This document shows, one piece after another, positions 5,793-35,667 of a stretch of 36,212 nt of DNA. This stretch comes from Acidobacteriota bacterium (GTDB lineage: Bacteria; Acidobacteriota; Vicinamibacteria; Fen-336), in contig JAJDNV010000037.1 in NCBI GenBank assembly GCA_022340545.1, positions 1 through 36,212 of the forward strand, given 5' to 3'. The notes beneath the pieces were generated by a model. The model worked only from the letters and a program-made list of their open reading frames with translations. It was not told where the DNA came from and searched no databases. Position 1 is the stretch's first letter. Each line of letters opens with the position of its first letter. Position numbers and translations under genes: made by a program.

Positions 5793-5834
5793 CTCAGCCG
5801 TCGGCCTGCAGCTCGGTGGCCACGATCATTCATT

Positions 5835-5871
5835 GACCCCCCACCCTATCCCTCCCCACGTAGGGGGAGGG
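5835..5871. repeat. 37-bp palindromic repeat, copy A
   Basis: First of two direct copies (35 of 37 bases identical to 5965-6001). It starts with a C-rich run and ends in a hairpin with arms CCCTCCCC (5850-5857) and GGGGAGGG (5864-5871) around ACGTAG. It lies in the gap between ppdK and mutL. Origin unknown; it looks like a short interspersed palindromic unit and not a coding remnant. Confidence 0.75.
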
Positions 5872-5964
5872 AAAGGCTTGAGATAGGCCACGGACGCCGA
5901 CGTGTCCCCAAGGAAGGGACACGCCGGCGGAACTGGGCCTGGTGCTCAACTGCGCCTGCAAATG
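5872..5964. other. Spacer between the two 37-bp repeats, no gene seen
   Basis: This stretch contains no ORF with family resemblance and no clear promoter. Most of the 315-bp ppdK-mutL gap is accounted for by the ppdK hairpin, the two palindromic repeats and the putative mutL promoter. A weak inverted pair, GTGTCCC/GGGACAC, occurs at 5898-5921 (gtgtccccaaggaagggacac). Confidence 0.4.
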
Positions 5965-6001
5965 GACCCCCCTCCCTAGCCCTCCCCACGTAGGGGGAGG
6001 G
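5965..6001. repeat. 37-bp palindromic repeat, copy B
   Basis: Second direct copy of the unit at 5835-5871, 130 bp downstream and differing at two positions (t for a at +9, g for t at +15). The hairpin arms CCCTCCCC/GGGGAGGG are unchanged. A third, degenerate arm pair (CCCTCTCC ACGT GGGGGG, 6003-6020) follows directly. This places a hairpin-rich block about 35-90 bp ahead of the mutL start. Confidence 0.75.
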
Positions 6002-6035
6002 GCCCTCTCCACGTGGGGGGTGTAGTGCTTGGGGT

Positions 6036-7860: not shown

Positions 7861-7866
7861 CCTGTG

Positions 7867-7933
7867 GCTCGAACGGCTGTCTTTCGGAGGGGCTCCACCG
7901 TGGCCGTTGCCCGGTGAATCCCTCCGTTCGAGC
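7867..7933 (+). terminator. Inverted repeat just after mutL
   Basis: GCTCGAACGG (7867-7876) and CCGTTCGAGC (7924-7933) are a perfect 10-bp inverted pair starting six bases after the mutL stop, with a 47-base loop that has its own GGAGGG/CCCTCC pairing potential. No T-tract. It could be a 3' hairpin of mutL that predates the palindromic element immediately downstream. Function inferred from position only. Confidence 0.4.
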
Positions 7934-7945
7934 TACGGAGAACCT

Positions 7946-8198
7946 CTAGTGGTACGTCACCGAAATCGTGTGGACTGCATAGGCGTGGTGGCGCGCAGGC
8001 GGCCGGGGCCCCCGACGAGGACGCAGCTGTGCTTCGAAGTTGATGCTCGAGGCGCCCGAATCGTGAACAATGGCGTACCCCAGGAGGCTGACGGGGCCTG
8101 CGGCCCCGCACGATTCGGGCACCTCGCCGCAGACGGGGTGGCCGCCGAGCGCCCAACGCTCCAGTAGAACGCACACGAGTTCGGTGACAGGACACTAG
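7946..8198 (+). repeat. CTAG-ended palindromic element, copy 1 (long form)
   Basis: A 253-bp intergenic element between convergent mutL and the aminotransferase gene. The termini are inverted: CTAGTGGTACGTCACCGAA on the left, and CTAGTGTCCTGTCACCGAA reading inward from the right. The core GGGGCCCCCGACGAGGAC is at 8005-8022. Internally, GCCCGAATCGTG (8054-8065) pairs with CACGATTCGGGC (8109-8120), enclosing a second hairpin CGGGGCC-TGC-GGCCCCG (8092-8108). The right-hand CTAG supplies the TAG stop of the aminotransferase. Shadow ORFs through copies 1-3 give near-identical peptides (LGARRPPRLR), an independent sign of homology. Copies 1 and 2 share orientation; 3 and 4 are inverted. Confidence 0.88.
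8054..8120 (-). repeat. Internal double stem-loop module of element copy 1
   Basis: Outer 12-bp stem GCCCGAATCGTG/CACGATTCGGGC and inner 7-bp stem with a 3-base loop. Read on the minus strand it aligns with the module at 29401-29468 in copy 4: same order, same spacing, and base-pair-preserving changes in the arms. The short copies 2 and 3 lack it. Confidence 0.8.
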
Positions 8199-13494: not shown

Positions 13495-14745
13495 GTGAGC
13501 GGTGCCGGGCAGGCCTTCGACATCTCTCGTGTTCTCGTCAGCGAAGAGGTCCGCCAGATCCGCCGCGAGGGCTGGACGGGCGTGCTGGCCCTGGCCCAGG
13601 GCGACATCGCGAAGGGTCTCTATTTCATGGACGGGGAGATCGTCTTCGCGGCGTCGACCGTTGAGGAGGATCGCCTCGGCGCCAACCTCTACCGGATCGG
13701 ACGGATCACGGAACCCCAGTTCCGGGCGGCGATGACCGCGGCGCAGACGCCGGGCCGACGCCTCGGGCAGGCCCTCATCGATGCCGGGGTCCTGAAGCGC
13801 GAAGAGCTGGCGGCAGCGGTGGAAGGACAGGCGGAGCGGATCGCCCTCTCGGTCCTCCGCTGGACGAGCGGGCGGCTGCAGCGGCGGGCGATGGAGCGGC
13901 CCCTCCCCGCCGACCTGATCCTCGAGCTCAAGACGGGTCGCCTGCTGCTCCTGGGGGCGCGGCTCTTCCCGAACCCGAGGCGCCTCGAGGTTGCGCTCGG
14001 GGGGCCGGGGACGCGGCTGCGCCGCGTGGCCATCCGCCCGTTCGCCTACGACCAGCTGCCCACCTCGTCTCCGGAGCGTGCGGTGCTGGCCCTCTCGGCT
14101 CGCGAGACCACCCTCGGGGACGCGCTCAGTCTGCCCCATCCCCGGGATCAGCTGCTGCGGGCGGTTTACGGGCTCGTGGCCAGTGGCATGGTCGAGACAC
14201 ACGAGGCGGCGCCCGCGGCGCCGGAAGCGCCCGAGGAGATCGAGGTCGAGATCGAGGTCGAGCCCGCGGCTGAGCCCGCGCTCGAGCCCGGGTCCGCACT
14301 CGGGGAGGTCGGGCCGGCGTTCGAGGCTGGACCCGCTGACGACGAGGTCGGGTCTGAGCCCGACGCGCCGCCGAGCCCCGACACCGGCGAGCAGCGGGCG
14401 CGCTCGCTGCTCGAACGGGGGCAGCGGCAGGCGGCGGTGGAGCTGCTGACGACCCTCGTCGAGATGTACCCCGACGCGCACGGCTGCCGGAGGCTGCTCG
14501 CGATGACGCTGGCGCAGGCGGGGTCGTTCCAGAAGGACGTCGAAAGCCACTGCCTCGCCGCCCTCGAGATGGACTCCAAGGACACGGAGCTCAGACACCG
14601 CCTGGCGACCTACTACCGCCGTGCCGGGATGACCGCGCGAGCGATGCTACAGCTACGCAAGATCCTCTCCGACGATCCCGGTCACGCCGGGGCCTGGCGG
14701 GACCTCGGCGAGCTCGAGGCCGCGGAGGGGAAGCGGGGCCGGTAG
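13495..14745 (+). CDS. DUF4388 (PatA-like) protein with acidic linker and C-terminal TPRs
   Basis: 416 residues, no signal peptide. The N-terminal ~110 residues resemble DUF4388 (GWTGVLALAQGDIAKGLYFM, DGEIVFAAS, DRLGANLYRIG), a cytoplasmic module common in Myxococcota, Acidobacteriota and relatives and often linked to regulatory or motility proteins. A second part (residues 70-230) is followed by a Glu/Ala/Pro-rich linker (EIEVEIEVEPAAEPALEPG) and TPR-like helices (AVELLTTLVEMYPDAHGCRR, LAALEMDSKDTELRHRLATY). GTG start with GGAGGAGG upstream. The TAG stop coincides with the left end of repeat element 2. A scaffold role is inferred; no catalytic motif is seen. Confidence 0.8.
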   Translation: MSGAGQAFDISRVLVSEEVRQIRREGWTGVLALAQGDIAKGLYFMDGEIVFAASTVEEDRLGANLYRIGRITEPQFRAAMTAAQTPGRRLGQALIDAGVLKREELAAAVEGQAERIALSVLRWTSGRLQRRAMERPLPADLILELKTGRLLLLGARLFPNPRRLEVALGGPGTRLRRVAIRPFAYDQLPTSSPERAVLALSARETTLGDALSLPHPRDQLLRAVYGLVASGMVETHEAAPAAPEAPEEIEVEIEVEPAAEPALEPGSALGEVGPAFEAGPADDEVGSEPDAPPSPDTGEQRARSLLERGQRQAAVELLTTLVEMYPDAHGCRRLLAMTLAQAGSFQKDVESHCLAALEMDSKDTELRHRLATYYRRAGMTARAMLQLRKILSDDPGHAGAWRDLGELEAAEGKRGR

Positions 14746-14915
14746 CGCGACGTCACCGAAGTCATGTCTGTAGGAAGGGCGTGGGGGCGCGCAGGCGGCC
14801 GGGGCCCCCGTCGAGGACGCAGCTGTCCTTCGAAGCTGACGCGCCCGCAGCCGGGGTGGCCGCCGAGCGCCCAGAGCTCCGGAGAATGCACATGACTTCG
14901 GTGACGGGACAGTAG
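14742..14915 (+). repeat. CTAG-type palindromic element, copy 2 (short form)
   Basis: 174 bp between the convergent DUF4388 and radical SAM genes. The inverted termini GTCACCGAAGTCATGT (14752-14767, read inward) are perfect over 16 bp with the right end. The ends are GTAG on the left and CTAC on the right-hand inward read. The core GGGGCCCCCGTCGAGGAC at 14801-14818 is one base different from copy 1. The internal stem-loop module of copies 1 and 4 is missing. The left TAG is the stop codon of the DUF4388 gene; the right end is 12 bp short of the radical SAM stop. Confidence 0.87.
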
Positions 14916-22396: not shown

Positions 22397-22568
22397 CTAG
22401 CGTGCTGTCACCGAGTCGTTGTGTTCTCTGGAGTGTTCGGCGCTCGGCGGCCACCCCGTCTGCGGGCGCAGCAGCTTCGAAGTGCAGCTGCGTCCTCGTC
22501 GGGGGCCCCGGCCGCCTGCGCGCCACCACGCCCGCCCGGCCAACACGACCTCGGCGACGTACTGCTAG
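22397..22568 (-). repeat. CTAG-ended palindromic element, copy 3 (short form, inverted)
   Basis: 172 bp with CTAG at both ends (22397-22400 and 22565-22568). It is inverted relative to copies 1 and 2: the minus strand carries the core GGGGCCCCCGACGAGGAC (22509-22492). The internal module is missing. The centre is TTCGAA flanked by CGCAGC/GCTGCG. It caps the 3' end of the M23 gene (the right CTAG holds its TAG stop), and its left end lies about 85 bp upstream of the putative secA promoter. This is the only copy not at a convergent junction. Confidence 0.87.
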
Positions 22569-23461
22569 CGGAAGGACCTGTACTCGTCCAGGATGAACGT
22601 GATGGGGTTGCGGAGCTGGTCGTCCACCCACACCTCGTAGTGGAGGTGGGGCGCCGTCGAGCGCCCGGTGTTGCCCACGAAGCCGATGACGTCGCCGCGG
22701 CGCACCCGCTGGCCCGGGCGGGCGTTGAAGCCGTCGAGGTGGGCGAAACGGGTGACGATTCCGTAGCCGTGATCCACGACGAGGGCGTTGCCGTAGGCGC
22801 CGCGCTTGCCGCGGAAGGTGACCACCCCGTCGGCCGGGGCCACGACACGGGTCCCTCGTGGGGTCGAGATGTCGATGCCCGGGTGGAAGTCCGGCATGCC
22901 CGTGAAGGGGTCCTTGCGGTTCCCGAAGGACGCCGAGAGGTATCCCCGGACGGGCCAGATCGACGGCGTCGAAGCGAGCAGGACCTGCTGGTCCTTGAAA
23001 AAGGCCTGGAGCCGGCTCGACTTCTCGGTGAGGGCACTGACGGTCTGATCCATGTCCTGGAGCGAGGCGCCGATGTCCAGCGAGGGAGCGGCCGTCTCGA
23101 GGCGCGTCGTCCCGCCCACGCCGCCGATGCCCGCCTCCGGCAGGCTCTCCTCGACGCCGGCCATCAGACCCAGCTTGGTCACCATGTTCTGGAGGGTCAG
23201 GACCCGGGCTTGGAGACGGCCCGCGTTGTCCTCGTAGGCCCGGGCCTTGGCCGCGAGGGCCAGGTTCTCGCCCCGAAGTCGCTGCAATTCAGCAACTTCG
23301 ACGTTGATCCAGGTGTAGTGGATGACGATGGCCACCAGGGCCACGGCCAGGAAGCCGAGGGCCCCCAGGACCCACTTGGTCAGACGAACCGAGACCTGGA
23401 ATTTCCGAAACCGCGCCTTGGCGTGCGGGACGACGATCAGTGTGTAGAACTCGTTGGCCAT
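22565..23461 (-). CDS. M23 family (LytM-type) peptidoglycan peptidase, membrane-anchored
   Basis: 298 residues from ATG 23461, which has GGAG seven bases upstream; the longer ORF-track start is unlikely. A short cytoplasmic N-terminus is followed by one membrane helix (WVLGALGFLAVALVAIVIHY), a coiled-coil region (VAELQRLRGENLALAAKARA) and a C-terminal LytM domain with the zinc motifs HPGIDIS (H-x3-D) and HLHYEV (H-x-H). The catalytic site looks intact, so it could cleave cross-links in the periplasm or act as an EnvC-like activator. It lies 95 bp downstream of yifB. The TAG stop is formed by the end of repeat element 3. Confidence 0.92.
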   Translation of the reverse strand: MANEFYTLIVVPHAKARFRKFQVSVRLTKWVLGALGFLAVALVAIVIHYTWINVEVAELQRLRGENLALAAKARAYEDNAGRLQARVLTLQNMVTKLGLMAGVEESLPEAGIGGVGGTTRLETAAPSLDIGASLQDMDQTVSALTEKSSRLQAFFKDQQVLLASTPSIWPVRGYLSASFGNRKDPFTGMPDFHPGIDISTPRGTRVVAPADGVVTFRGKRGAYGNALVVDHGYGIVTRFAHLDGFNARPGQRVRRGDVIGFVGNTGRSTAPHLHYEVWVDDQLRNPITFILDEYRSFR

Positions 23462-26457: not shown

Positions 26458-26970
26458 ATGGACGAGTGGACGGGAAGCGACGGCCGGGTGGACGTGGCCG
26501 CCATCATGGGCCGGATCCGCGAGAAGATTCGTGGCCGGAGGGACCGGGGGCTCTACACCGACGAGGAGGTCGAGGAGCTGAGCGCCCTGCGGCTCCAGGC
26601 GTTCGCCGACGACGCCGGGATCGATCCGGACCTCCTCGCCCGCCTCATGGCGCCGAACCACAACTGGAACATCTCCACCGACTACCGGATCGAGACCCAC
26701 CGGGCCGGACCCGCCGCCCGCCTCGTGGTGCTCCTGAAGAAGCTGGTCCGGCCCTGGATCCGTCTGTACACCGACCAGCCGCTCAGCCGGCAGGCCCAGA
26801 TCAATCTCTATCTTCACTACCTCTGCCACAATCTCGTGCGGGAGCTGGTCCGTCTGCAGATCGAGCACACCGCCGTGCGCAACAAGCTGGACGCGCTCGC
26901 GGGCGAGCCGGGGCCGCCGGGCGACGAGGCGTCGCCGGGCGGAGAAAAGGGCGAGAAGGCGTCGGGGTGA
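26458..26970 (+). CDS. Small conserved protein heading the glycosyltransferase operon
   Basis: 170 residues, no signal peptide. The N-terminal VDVAAIMGRIREKIRGRR resembles a short 'D(V/I)-x2-IM-x2-IR' motif that precedes many polysaccharide-biosynthesis proteins in Acidobacteriota and related phyla; this link is from memory of such loci and is not proven here. The middle (MAPNHNWNISTDYRIETHR) and an amphipathic helical C-terminal half (LVVLLKKLVRPWIRLYTDQP) suggest membrane-surface association. The last 25 residues are low-complexity Gly/Glu. ATG start; its TGA overlaps the following GT gene (GTGA), so co-translation is likely. Function unknown. Confidence 0.7.
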   Translation: MDEWTGSDGRVDVAAIMGRIREKIRGRRDRGLYTDEEVEELSALRLQAFADDAGIDPDLLARLMAPNHNWNISTDYRIETHRAGPAARLVVLLKKLVRPWIRLYTDQPLSRQAQINLYLHYLCHNLVRELVRLQIEHTAVRNKLDALAGEPGPPGDEASPGGEKGEKASG

Positions 26971-28151
26971 AGGTCGCCTTCGTCGTCCAGCGCTACGGGA
27001 CCGAGATCGTTGGCGGGGCCGAGCTGCACTGCCGCTGGGTGGCCGAGCACCTGGCCAGGCGGCACGAGGTGGAGGTGCTGACCACCACCGCGACCGACTA
27101 CCTCACGTGGCGCAACGCCCTCGAGCGGGGCCTGTCGGAGGTGAACGGCGTGGCCGTGCGCCGGTTCCCCGTCGCCCGGGAGCGGGACATCGAGCGGTTC
27201 GACCCCGTGGCCAACAAGGTCTGCTTCTTCGAGCACACCGACGAGGAGGAGCGCCGGTGGGCCGAGGAGCACGGGCCGGTCTGTCCGGAGCTTCTGGCCC
27301 ACCTGCGTGAGCACGAGCGCGACTACGACGCCCTCATCTTCTTCTCCTACCGCTACTGGACGACCTACTTCGGGCTGCAGGTGGCACCGCACAAGAGCAT
27401 CCTGGTGCCGACCGCGGAGCACGACCGGGTCCTCTACCTGCGGCTCTTCCGGCCCTTCTACCGCCTCCCCGCGGCGATCGCCTTCAACAGCCCCGAGGAG
27501 CGCATCCTCATCGAGAGGATCACCGGCAACGAGAACCTCCCTGGCGAGGTGGTGGGGACGGGAATCGACCGTCCCCCCGCGATCCCCGTCGAGGAGGTGG
27601 CGCCGCGGCTCGACCTCCTCGGGGACTACCTCGTCTACGTGGGACGGATCGAGCCCGAGAAGGGCTGCGCGGTCATGATTGACCACTTCCTCCGCTGGCA
27701 GCGCGAGACGCGGGCCAACGTGACCCTCGCGCTCTTCGGCCGCAGCACCATGACCTTCTCGGAGAACGCCCACGTCCGTCTCATGGGGGTGGTCCCGGAT
27801 GGGGAGAAGCTCGCCGCCATCGCCCGCGCGCGCGCCCTCGTTATGCCTTCGCGGCACGAGAGCCTGTCGATGGTGGTGCTCGAGGCCTGGATGATGGGAC
27901 GTCCGGTCCTCGTGAACGGCGACTGCGAGGTCCTCCGCGGGCAGGTGCTGCGCGCAGACGGAGGCCTCTACTATCGTCGCTACGAGGAGTTCGCGGCGGC
28001 CCTCGACCTGCTCATGGGGGAGCCCGCCCTCGCCGACCGGCTGGGACGCCAGGGCGGCGAGTACTTCGAGGAGAACTACGCCTGGGAGCGCATCGTGGAG
28101 AAGTACGAGCGGCTCCTCGCAATGGCCACCGGGGGAGGTGGGCGCGGGTGA
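26967..28151 (+). CDS. Family 4 (GT-B) glycosyltransferase, first tandem copy
   Basis: 394 residues from GTG 26967 (4-bp overlap with the previous gene); the track start at 26466 is a frame-shadow. The N-terminus VKVAFVVQRYGTEIVGGAEL is the GT-B donor-side start with the GGAE acceptor-loop motif. The C-terminal Rossmann domain has LVYVGRIEPEKGC and the E-x7-E nucleotide-sugar motif in PSRHESLSMVVLEAW. Retaining transfer of a sugar to a lipid-linked or polysaccharide acceptor in the cytoplasm is the family role; donor and acceptor are unknown. It is a clear paralogue of the next gene over its whole length. Confidence 0.9.
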   Translation: MKVAFVVQRYGTEIVGGAELHCRWVAEHLARRHEVEVLTTTATDYLTWRNALERGLSEVNGVAVRRFPVARERDIERFDPVANKVCFFEHTDEEERRWAEEHGPVCPELLAHLREHERDYDALIFFSYRYWTTYFGLQVAPHKSILVPTAEHDRVLYLRLFRPFYRLPAAIAFNSPEERILIERITGNENLPGEVVGTGIDRPPAIPVEEVAPRLDLLGDYLVYVGRIEPEKGCAVMIDHFLRWQRETRANVTLALFGRSTMTFSENAHVRLMGVVPDGEKLAAIARARALVMPSRHESLSMVVLEAWMMGRPVLVNGDCEVLRGQVLRADGGLYYRRYEEFAAALDLLMGEPALADRLGRQGGEYFEENYAWERIVEKYERLLAMATGGGGRG

Positions 28152-29314
28152 GGCTCGCCTTCGTCATCCAGCGGTACGGGCTGGAGGTTGCAGGCGGGGC
28201 CGAGCTGCACTGCCGCTGGCTGGCCGAGCGCCTGGCCCAGCGTCATCACGTCGAGGTGTTTGCCACGCGGGCGCTCGACTACCTCGAGTGGCGGAATCAC
28301 TACCCCAGGGGCACCGAGGTCGTGGGCGGCATCCCGGTCCACCGCCACACCGTTCGGCGGACCCGAAACGCGCGGAAGTTCGCCTCGCTCAGCAACCTGT
28401 GCTTCCACGAGACGCACAGCCGCGAGGAGGAGGAGGCCTGGGTGCGCGAGAACGGTCCGTTCTCGCCGGAGCTCGTCCGGAAGGTGAGACGCTCGCGGAG
28501 CGACTTCGACCGGTTCCTCTTCTACTGCTACCGCTACTACCAGAGCTACCACGGCCTGCCCCCGGTGAGGGACCGGGCCATCCTCGTGCCGACGGCGGAG
28601 GAGGACCCGGCCATCCAGCTGGGTGTCTTCAAGGATCTCTTCCGCTCCCCCCGCGGCATCCTCTACCTGACCCCGGAGGAGCGGGCCCTGGTGGAGGACG
28701 CGAGCGGGAACCACGATGTCCCGAACGCGGTGATCGGGTCCGGGCTCAACCTCCCGCCGACCGACGCCGGCCATGATTTCGCGGCCCGGCACGGGCTGAC
28801 TCGCCCCTTCGTCCTTTATGTCGGACGGATCGACAAGAACAAGGGCTGCGTGAGCCTCTTCGCCTACTTCCGCAAGTTCGTCGAGGAGACCAGGGCCGAC
28901 GTCGACCTGGTTCTCGCCGGCTCCGCGGTGATCCCGATTCCCGATCACCCCCGCATCCACCACGTCGGCCGCGTCACCGAGGAGGAGAAGGTGGCGGCGC
29001 TCGGCCAGTGCCGGCTCCTGGTGATGCCGTCGCCCTACGAGAGCCTCTCCATCATCACGCTCGAGGCCTGGAAGCTGGGAACCCCGGTGCTCGCGAACGG
29101 GCGGTGCCGGGTGCTGATGGGACAGTGTCTTCGCTCGAACGGGGGGCTCTTCTACCACGGGTACGCGGAGTTCGCCGAGGGGCTGCGCCTCCTGCTGGAG
29201 AAGCCACAGCTGGCGGCCTCGCTCGGCCGGCAGGGCCGGGACTGGGTCGACACCGAGTGCGCGTGGGAGACGGTGGAAGGCCGGGTGGAGGAGCTGCTCG
29301 AGCGAACGGGCTAG
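28148..29314 (+). CDS. Family 4 (GT-B) glycosyltransferase, second tandem copy
   Basis: 388 residues from GTG 28148, overlapping the previous GT by 4 bp (GTGA). It repeats that protein's architecture: VRLAFVIQRYGLEVAGGAEL at the N-terminus, FVLYVGRIDKNKGCVSLF mid-protein, and E-x7-E in PSPYESLSIITLEAW. The two share long collinear stretches, so they arose by tandem duplication, and differ most in the central acceptor-facing region, which suggests successive transfers onto one glycan. The TAG stop is the left end (CTAG) of repeat element 4. Confidence 0.9.
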   Translation: MRLAFVIQRYGLEVAGGAELHCRWLAERLAQRHHVEVFATRALDYLEWRNHYPRGTEVVGGIPVHRHTVRRTRNARKFASLSNLCFHETHSREEEEAWVRENGPFSPELVRKVRRSRSDFDRFLFYCYRYYQSYHGLPPVRDRAILVPTAEEDPAIQLGVFKDLFRSPRGILYLTPEERALVEDASGNHDVPNAVIGSGLNLPPTDAGHDFAARHGLTRPFVLYVGRIDKNKGCVSLFAYFRKFVEETRADVDLVLAGSAVIPIPDHPRIHHVGRVTEEEKVAALGQCRLLVMPSPYESLSIITLEAWKLGTPVLANGRCRVLMGQCLRSNGGLFYHGYAEFAEGLRLLLEKPQLAASLGRQGRDWVDTECAWETVEGRVEELLERTG

Positions 29315-29558
29315 CCGACGTCGTGCCCCCGCACCCCTACGACTCTCGACCACGCGGAGCCCCGGGGCGGGCTCGGCGTGCACCCCGTCTGCGGCGGGGT
29401 GCTCGAATCGCGCGGAGCCGCAGGCTCCGGGTGGTGTCGCCGGACCCGCCCTTGTACGCGATTCGAGCACTCCGAAACCAACAGCCTCGAAGTTGAGCAG
29501 GGTCCTCGCCGGGGCCCCGCCCGCCGAGCCCGTCACCGCGTGGTCGTTGCCCAGCTAG
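29311..29558 (-). repeat. CTAG-ended palindromic element, copy 4 (long form, inverted)
   Basis: 248 bp filling the gap between the convergent GT4 and MglA-like genes. CTAG at 29311-29314 and 29555-29558 supplies the TAG stops of both genes. The core GGGGCCCCGGCGAGGAC is on the minus strand (29518-29502). Outer arms CGACCACGCGG/CCGCGTGGTCG and CGGGCTCGGCG/CGCCGAGCCCG pair across the element. The internal module is present. Its terminal ~20 bp differ from the TCACCGAA-type ends of copies 1-3, so it marks a second subfamily. Confidence 0.85.
29399..29470 (-). repeat. Internal double stem-loop module of element copy 4
   Basis: Outer stem GTGCTCGAATCGCG (29399-29412) / CGCGATTCGAGCAC (29457-29470), 14 bp perfect. 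Inner hairpin CGGAGCC-GCA-GGCTCCG (29413-29429). It aligns with the copy 1 module read on its minus strand. Every difference in the shared stems is compensated on the other arm. Confidence 0.82.
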
Positions 29559-34796: not shown

Positions 34797-35579
34797 ATGG
34801 GCGACTCGTCCGCGCTCGAGCCCTCCTCCCGCGCGGAGCCGAGAGAAGAGAAGGTCGTCATCGTCATGCCCGCCTACAACGCGGCGCGGACGATCGAGGA
34901 CACCTTCCGCGCCATCCCCGAGGGCTACTACGACGAGATCGTGGTGGTGGACGACCACAGCGGGGACGACACCTCCGCGAAGGCCGCCGCGCTCAACCTC
35001 AAGGTCATCCGCCACCCCCACAACGTCGGCTACGGCGGGAACCAGAAGACGTGCTACATGGAAGCTCTGCGCAGCGGGGCCACCATCGTGGTCATGCTCC
35101 ACCCCGACGGCCAGTACGACCCCGCGATCATCCCCGACATGATCCAGCCCATCCGCGAGGGGCGGGCCGACATGGTCCTGGGATCACGTATGCTCACCCC
35201 CGGCGGAGCCAGGCGCGGCGGCATGCCCCTGTGGAAGCGGGTCGCCAACCGCTTCTTGACGACCGTCGAGAACCTCGCCATGGGGCGAGGATTCGCGGAG
35301 TGCCACACCGGGTACCGTGCCTACAGCCGGCGCTTTCTGGAAACCGTCCCCTTCTTGCGCAATGCCAACGGGTTCGTGTTCGACACCGAGGTGATCTTCC
35401 AGGCCGTGAACTTCGACCTGCCCGTGGTCGAGGTGCCCGTCGAGAGCCGCTACTTCGAGGACGCCTCGTCCGTGGGCTTCCGTCAGGGTGTCGTCTACGG
35501 GCTCGGAACGCTCTGGACGGCCCTGCGATACCGGCTCCACCGCGCGGGCCTCGCGTCCAGCGACAAGTTCCGTAGGTAG
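34797..35579 (+). CDS. Family 2 glycosyltransferase, DPM1/polyprenyl-phosphate type
   Basis: 260 residues. The N-terminal tail of about 18 is followed by the GT-A fold: VVIVMPAYNAARTIEDTF, VVVDDHSGDDT, RHPHNVGYGGNQKT, the metal-binding MLHPDGQYDP (DxD equivalent), LGSRML and GFAECHTGYRAYSRRFL. It resembles dolichol/undecaprenyl-phosphate mannosyl- or glucosyltransferases. It has no C-terminal transmembrane helices, so a soluble or peripheral enzyme making a polyprenyl-phosphate sugar is likely; donor unknown. Single-gene unit divergent from the ArsA operon. The TAG stop at 35577-35579 is the left end of repeat element 5. Confidence 0.9.
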   Translation: MGDSSALEPSSRAEPREEKVVIVMPAYNAARTIEDTFRAIPEGYYDEIVVVDDHSGDDTSAKAAALNLKVIRHPHNVGYGGNQKTCYMEALRSGATIVVMLHPDGQYDPAIIPDMIQPIREGRADMVLGSRMLTPGGARRGGMPLWKRVANRFLTTVENLAMGRGFAECHTGYRAYSRRFLETVPFLRNANGFVFDTEVIFQAVNFDLPVVEVPVESRYFEDASSVGFRQGVVYGLGTLWTALRYRLHRAGLASSDKFRR

Positions 35580-35667
35580 CGACGCGTCAGGGAGTCGTGT
35601 GGCGCTCGCCCGCCGAGCCCCTGGGCGCGTGGTCCGGGACGCTCACACGAGCCGCGGCGCGTCCTAC
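35576..35667. repeat. CTAG-type palindromic element, copy 5 (minimal, 92 bp)
   Basis: Ends GTAG (35576-35579) and, read inward from the right, GTAG (35667-35664). Both TAGs are stop codons of the convergent GT2 and chalcone-isomerase-like genes. The inverted arms GTAGCGACGCG and TCGTGTG match the right arm GTAGGACGCG and TCGTGTG with small gaps. The segment CCCGCCGAGCCC-N6-GCGTGGTC is shared with the right part of copy 4, which makes it a shortened relative and not a chance hairpin. It lacks the GGGGCCCC core. Confidence 0.65.

Follow-up and report, generated by a model that had tools for sequence, protein, structure and literature searches.

Hairpin elements at CTAG stop codons in a Vicinamibacteria genome: a probable MITE-like family of mobile repeats

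IS5-type insertion sequences generate 4-bp target duplications at YTAR sites, often CTAG. The other systems closest to the repeats described here are bacterial MITEs (Correia/NEMIS, RUP, ERIC, YPAL/RU-2, and Nezha; passages of PMC2229807 and PMC3049150) and GTAG-tagged REPs, which often supply TAG stops to neighboring genes and occupy convergent and unidirectional gaps (PMC3733652). In pneumococcus, BOX, RUP, SPRITE, and even IS elements occur in excess between convergent genes, as described in passages of PMC3049150. Here, we compare with these systems a family of hairpin elements from a fragmented MAG (5.04 Mb, 94% complete), taking as the window the whole analyzed stretch of 36,212 nt (contig JAJDNV010000037.1). 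The elements are very probably non-autonomous, MITE-like mobile hairpins that insert into NTAG, mostly CTAG, with duplication of the target.

Element copies in the window

Genes were called with a home-made codon-usage caller, and gene names in the window are those of the original prediction, which held that all four convergent junctions carry an element and that a fifth copy caps the 3′ end of M23 ahead of secA. Both statements were confirmed. Exactly four convergent junctions were called, and all of them were filled: mutL 7860/aminotransferase-like 8195, DUF4388-type 14745/radical SAM 14927, 29314/29555, and 35579/35664, the copy at the last of these (35580–35663) being a core-less remnant. 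A repeat search of the window paired 7943–8164, 14739–14886, 22424–22571, and 29371–29429. No element was present in the three divergent gaps of the window (9061/9194, 25107/25402, and 34739/34797) or in its operon gaps, as had also been claimed.

The second copy (14742–14915, plus strand) is a 166-bp hairpin, with its core on the plus strand, between GTAG at 14742–14745 and GTAG at 14912–14915. These flanks are an identical direct repeat of GTAG, not CTAG, and the left one holds the TAG stop (14743–14745) of the plus-strand gene. Its conserved structured core (14786–14870, plus strand) reads GGCGCGCAGGCGG...CTTCGAAGC...GCCGCCGAGCGCC, a pattern common to the subfamilies and to a genome of the same genus. 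The first copy, a long variant (7946–8198, plus strand), is bounded by CTAG at 7946–7949 and at 8195–8198, the latter being where the aminotransferase-like gene on the minus strand stops; an extra self-complementary module of ~80 bp (8047–8126, plus strand), of a type that recurs in the fourth copy and in other genomic copies, lengthens its inner core stem. The third copy, between M23 and secA (22397–22568, minus strand), has its left CTAG at 22397–22400 and its right CTAG at 22565–22568, and the stop TAG of M23 lies within the latter. The fourth copy (29311–29558, minus strand) is a long variant with diverged outer arms and CTAG at both ends, 29311–29314 being the stop of the plus-strand gene and 29555–29558 that of the minus-strand gene. 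In the remnant fifth copy (35576–35667, no strand assigned), the plus-strand gene stops at GTAG (35576–35579) and the minus-strand gene at CTAC (35664–35667). What is left of this hairpin is a pair of diverged ends and a single arm, of which 23 nt align at 95.7% with another copy in the genome; by inspection, the left end of the hairpin shows the spacing typical of the family, apart from an indel.

Across the family, the element is a hairpin of ~170–250 bp (~50–250 bp counting deletion derivatives) with no reported open frame, inverted ends of the form TG(T/G)..GTCACCGAAGTCGTGT, and a structured core. It starts with TG and ends with CA, its inverted ends of ~22 bp being TGTCCT or TGGTAC followed by GTCACCGAAGTCGTGT, and the consensus order is CTAG, TG, ~4 variable bases, GTCACCGAAGTCGTGT, core, ACACGACTTCGGTGAC, ~4 variable bases, CA, CTAG. 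The ends bear TGTCCTGTCACCGAAGTCGTG, and the 15-bp terminal inverted repeat GTCACCGAAGTCRTG was found at 40 forward and 39 reverse sites versus one control site. Subfamilies differ in their arms and have the core in common; several include the optional ~80-bp inner stem, and core-deleted (internal-deletion) derivatives exist, also at stop codons.

Other repeats were seen in the window. Between the mutL stop and the first copy lies a separate 85-bp hairpin (7861–7945, no strand assigned), which is not a family member, is present as a single copy in the sampled DNA, is absent from the same-genus genome, and is possibly another inserted palindrome. A second repeat family (5830–6020; ATTGACCCCCCACCCTATCCCTCCCCACGTAGGGGGAGGG together with a hairpin of the GGACACGCGGGYG type) is represented by 73 BLAST pieces across the sampled genome and sometimes adjoins truncated element copies (contigs C95, C241, and C109). 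Two neighboring genes have in common a 151-nt stretch at 79% identity (26965–27115 and 28146–28296), a probable tandem gene duplication.

Gene orientation and stop codons

Background counts were made in a 1.15-Mb sample that includes all element contigs and was deliberately enriched for them, which inflates absolute occupancy and affects comparisons between junction classes less. Core copies occupied 29 of the 145 convergent and 25 of the 630 tandem junctions, and none of the 150 divergent ones; the 55 classifiable copies comprised 29 convergent, 26 tandem, none divergent, and none inside a called gene. The convergent/3′ bias of the original prediction is real genome-wide, whereas an element at every convergent junction is a feature of the window and not a rule for the genome, most convergent junctions in the sample being element-free. 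The same-genus genome showed a more pronounced bias than the own genome, its copies being 19 convergent, 7 tandem, and 0 divergent against a background of 54, 263, and 54 junctions. As a separate observation, CTAG itself was very scarce in genes: of 271 non-element sites in the 1.15-Mb own-genome sample, 35 were genic and 52 lay in divergent gaps, the latter suggesting promoter use.

The element ends coincide with stop codons. At 36–39 of 77 end sites, the terminal tetranucleotide contained the TAG stop of the neighboring gene, nearly always at offset 0, and 28 of these sites were CTAG; in a hand count, most elements had at least one end base-exact with a stop codon. Ends away from stops are mostly without the motif now, CTAG being kept in 11. 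Identical flanking tetranucleotides were found in 10 of 39 end pairs (eight CTAG, one GTAG, and one CTAC), and a further pair (C73) became CTAG/CTAG after hand realignment. Because GTAG/GTAG and CTAC/CTAC pairs occur, the tetranucleotide is a duplicated target and not part of the element.

Occupancy depended on the stop itself: 32 of 153 CTAG stops were filled, compared with 17 of 201 other NTAG stops (p = 0.001) and 14 of 702 TGA stops (p ~2e-15), and no TAA stop was found at an element end. CTAG at stops (32 filled, ~114 empty) also differed from other intergenic CTAG (~3 filled, counted by hand, and 133 empty; p ~1e-7); for the sites in divergent gaps, promoter disruption may be the reason. 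Orientation had a smaller effect, with a weak convergent excess among CTAG stops having room downstream (17 of 49 convergent versus 10 of 57 tandem filled, p = 0.048; 13 of 45 versus 7 of 54 when only stops at an element end were counted, p = 0.077). Stop-codon sequence is thus a far better predictor of occupancy than gene orientation is.

The MITE-like reading would account for this placement through the target. CTAG is scarce inside genes here and most common as a (C)TAG stop codon, and the element inserts into NTAG, mostly CTAG, and duplicates it. As CTAG is palindromic, a single site can end two overlapping convergent genes, and an insertion there is harmless because each gene receives its own intact TAG. 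The element would be moved by an enzyme acting in trans, insertions into genes or promoters would be lost by purging, and the inserted element should be transcribed from one flank or from both and then fold. We consider insertion at CTAG stop codons, with no terminator function assumed, to be the best explanation of the convergent placement. Counting against the MITE-like reading, stop CTAG is favored over CTAG elsewhere between genes more strongly than simple gene avoidance would give.

Alternatively, the elements may be host-selected bidirectional terminators or 3′ insulators, with a hairpin that forms from either strand and would stop transcripts or shield them; we hold this to be possible but doubtful, and it is compatible with a mobile origin. 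The strong convergent/3′ bias with no divergent copies in both genomes fits such a role, as do the weak convergent excess at CTAG stops and the three junctions that are filled in the two genomes alike, in one case by the same long variant. T-tract terminators, presumed to be scarce in the original prediction, were indeed below the shuffle level in the window (3 and 2 found versus 5.9 and 6.3 expected), which also fits this view. However, no T-run follows either element arm, so that the copies do not qualify as intrinsic terminators, and none of the listed terminator-like sites falls inside an element. The majority of convergent junctions being empty also argues against selection, and a base-exact fusion with TAG is unneeded by a terminator and expected of an insertion target. 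Since pneumococcal repeats and ordinary IS elements are likewise convergent-biased (passages of PMC3049150), the bias alone is no evidence of function.

Empty sites, mobilization, and fold

Empty and filled orthologous sites demonstrate insertion into NTAG with tetranucleotide duplication at several sites. No element separates mutL from the aminotransferase gene in the same-genus genome, where the two overlap as ..cggcggag[CTAG]tcgcagtgggcg.., and the counterpart in the window is CTAG-element-CTAGtcacaatgggc, with the unrelated 85-bp hairpin intervening on the mutL side. The two genes at the C73 junction likewise overlap as CTAG in that genome, the 29311 junction is a CTAG in two other genera (G006 and G009), and M23 keeps its CTAG stop without the element in several relatives. 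Convergent genes rarely overlap by such a 4-nt CTAG: of the ~145 convergent junctions sampled, 3 do. Six junctions filled in the own genome lack a copy in the same-genus genome. Against the MITE-like reading, three of these (14742, C387, and C73:12544) have no readable shared CTAG there; at 14742, the relative has a 32-nt gap and a TGA-ended gene, where the pre-insertion site is not readable. Three junctions hold a copy in both genomes, one being the same long variant.

Also against that reading, a search for three transposase families (Y1, DDE_Tnp_1, and DDE_5) found no such gene in the own genome, which is a fragmented MAG, and DDE_Tnp_1 was absent from the same-genus genome too. Scanning the sampled DNA for longer elements bounded by the family ends returned a few widely separated end pairs, in most of which the second end was poor. 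It is very unlikely, in our judgment, that the elements are REP/BIME-like repeats moved by a Y1 tyrosine transposase (RAYT or TIRYT), with GTAG-tagged ends donating TAG stops. The resemblance to GTAG-REPs in stop donation and in the gaps occupied speaks for this explanation, and TIR-associated Y1 transposases occur in Acidobacteria (PMC3733652); against it, the own genome has no Y1 gene, the two Y1 genes of the same-genus genome have unrelated inverted ends, such as AAAGGGGTCAGGTCCC, and no element copy nearby, and no Y1 gene with GTCACCGAAGTCGTG ends was found in either genome. Moreover, REPs measure 20–40 bp and are tagged at a single end, whereas the element reaches 170–250 bp, its two ends match, and a direct repeat of 4 bp flanks it. 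The two same-genus Y1 genes (L285 at G001:C139 and L286 at G001:C6) have inverted ends of the AAAGGGGTCAGGTCCCAAACG and GGGGTCAGATCTC types, like published TIRtrons.

Single copies folded better than their shuffles (z −3.2, −7.1, and −4.6). A 44-pair structure on 30 aligned copies had 98% paired cells and 5 compensated pairs, with 12 double-change cells in stems versus 2.4 expected in shuffles, figures that relatedness can inflate and that concern a structure derived from the same 30-copy alignment. Core stems are nearly invariant within the family and say little on covariation; one compensated inner pair, G-C to C-G, recurred when the second genome was added. These very stable folds and compensatory stem changes also suit a terminator or insulator, but stem covariation can come from subfamily spread. 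Against a structured non-coding RNA gene or cis-regulator family, in which the core is selected, the arms are secondary, and mobility is incidental, stand the many copies beside unrelated genes, the core-deleted copies also found at stop codons, and the restriction to one genus; at both gathering and relaxed thresholds, Rfam matched no element and returned only a tRNA, together with a weak hit below threshold on the strand opposite to that tRNA. We therefore find this explanation unlikely, even with the same core combined with different arms in the subfamilies and in the second genome, the covarying inner pair, and an extensible inner stem in its favor. A conserved core with varying arms is nevertheless unusual for a plain MITE. 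The element might recognize stop codons as such, CTAG in use as a stop being favored beyond what purging explains, and the covarying core might be an RNA or single-strand signal for a mobilizing machinery that is perhaps linked to the termination of transcription or translation; we think this improbable.

The own genome held 48 pieces by DNA search and 66 core copies by the core model, which detected 27 core copies in the same-genus MAG. A first exact core pattern had no match in the genome contigs, and a degenerate pattern matched the same-genus MAG ALSabin.143 only. No convincing match was found in the other members of the taxonomic family that were searched, in viral contigs (exact core patterns), or in phages and plasmids (BLAST), and the element was thus detected in one genus and nowhere else in this material. 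Short matches in five other relatives (G011, G025, G029, G036, and G045) look like chance or coding matches.

Comparison with known systems

The element has the same target and duplication length as IS5-type insertion sequences, but DDE_Tnp_1 is absent from both genomes and its ends match no IS here. Duplication of a palindromic stop-codon target by the insertion leaves both proteins unchanged and gives a sequence-level reason for repeats to collect between convergent genes, which cautions that convergent bias is not proof of terminator function; the natural filled and empty orthologous junctions permit terminator activity to be measured directly. Searches of open-access titles and abstracts for CTAG or stop-codon targeting yielded no description of this element.

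Like bacterial MITEs, as portrayed in passages of PMC2229807 and PMC3049150, the element is short, non-coding, and self-complementary, and it has the inverted ends and target duplication that most of them have; as with YPAL, empty and filled sites are found between relatives. It differs from them in its NTAG (mostly CTAG) stop-codon target, its high G+C content, its conserved branched core, and the lack of a related IS among our findings. As in GTAG-tagged REPs and TIRtrons, the terminal TAG is the stop of the flanking ORF, and convergent and unidirectional gaps are preferred (PMC3733652), but the element is longer, has two matching ends with a direct repeat, and has no Y1 transposase with such ends. 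Its sequence is unrelated to BOX, RUP, and SPRITE, for which the relevant passages of PMC3049150 describe no CTAG or stop-codon targeting. With pneumococcal BOX, as presented there, it nevertheless shares a modular organization, the optional inner part of BOX being comparable to the 80-bp module of the element.
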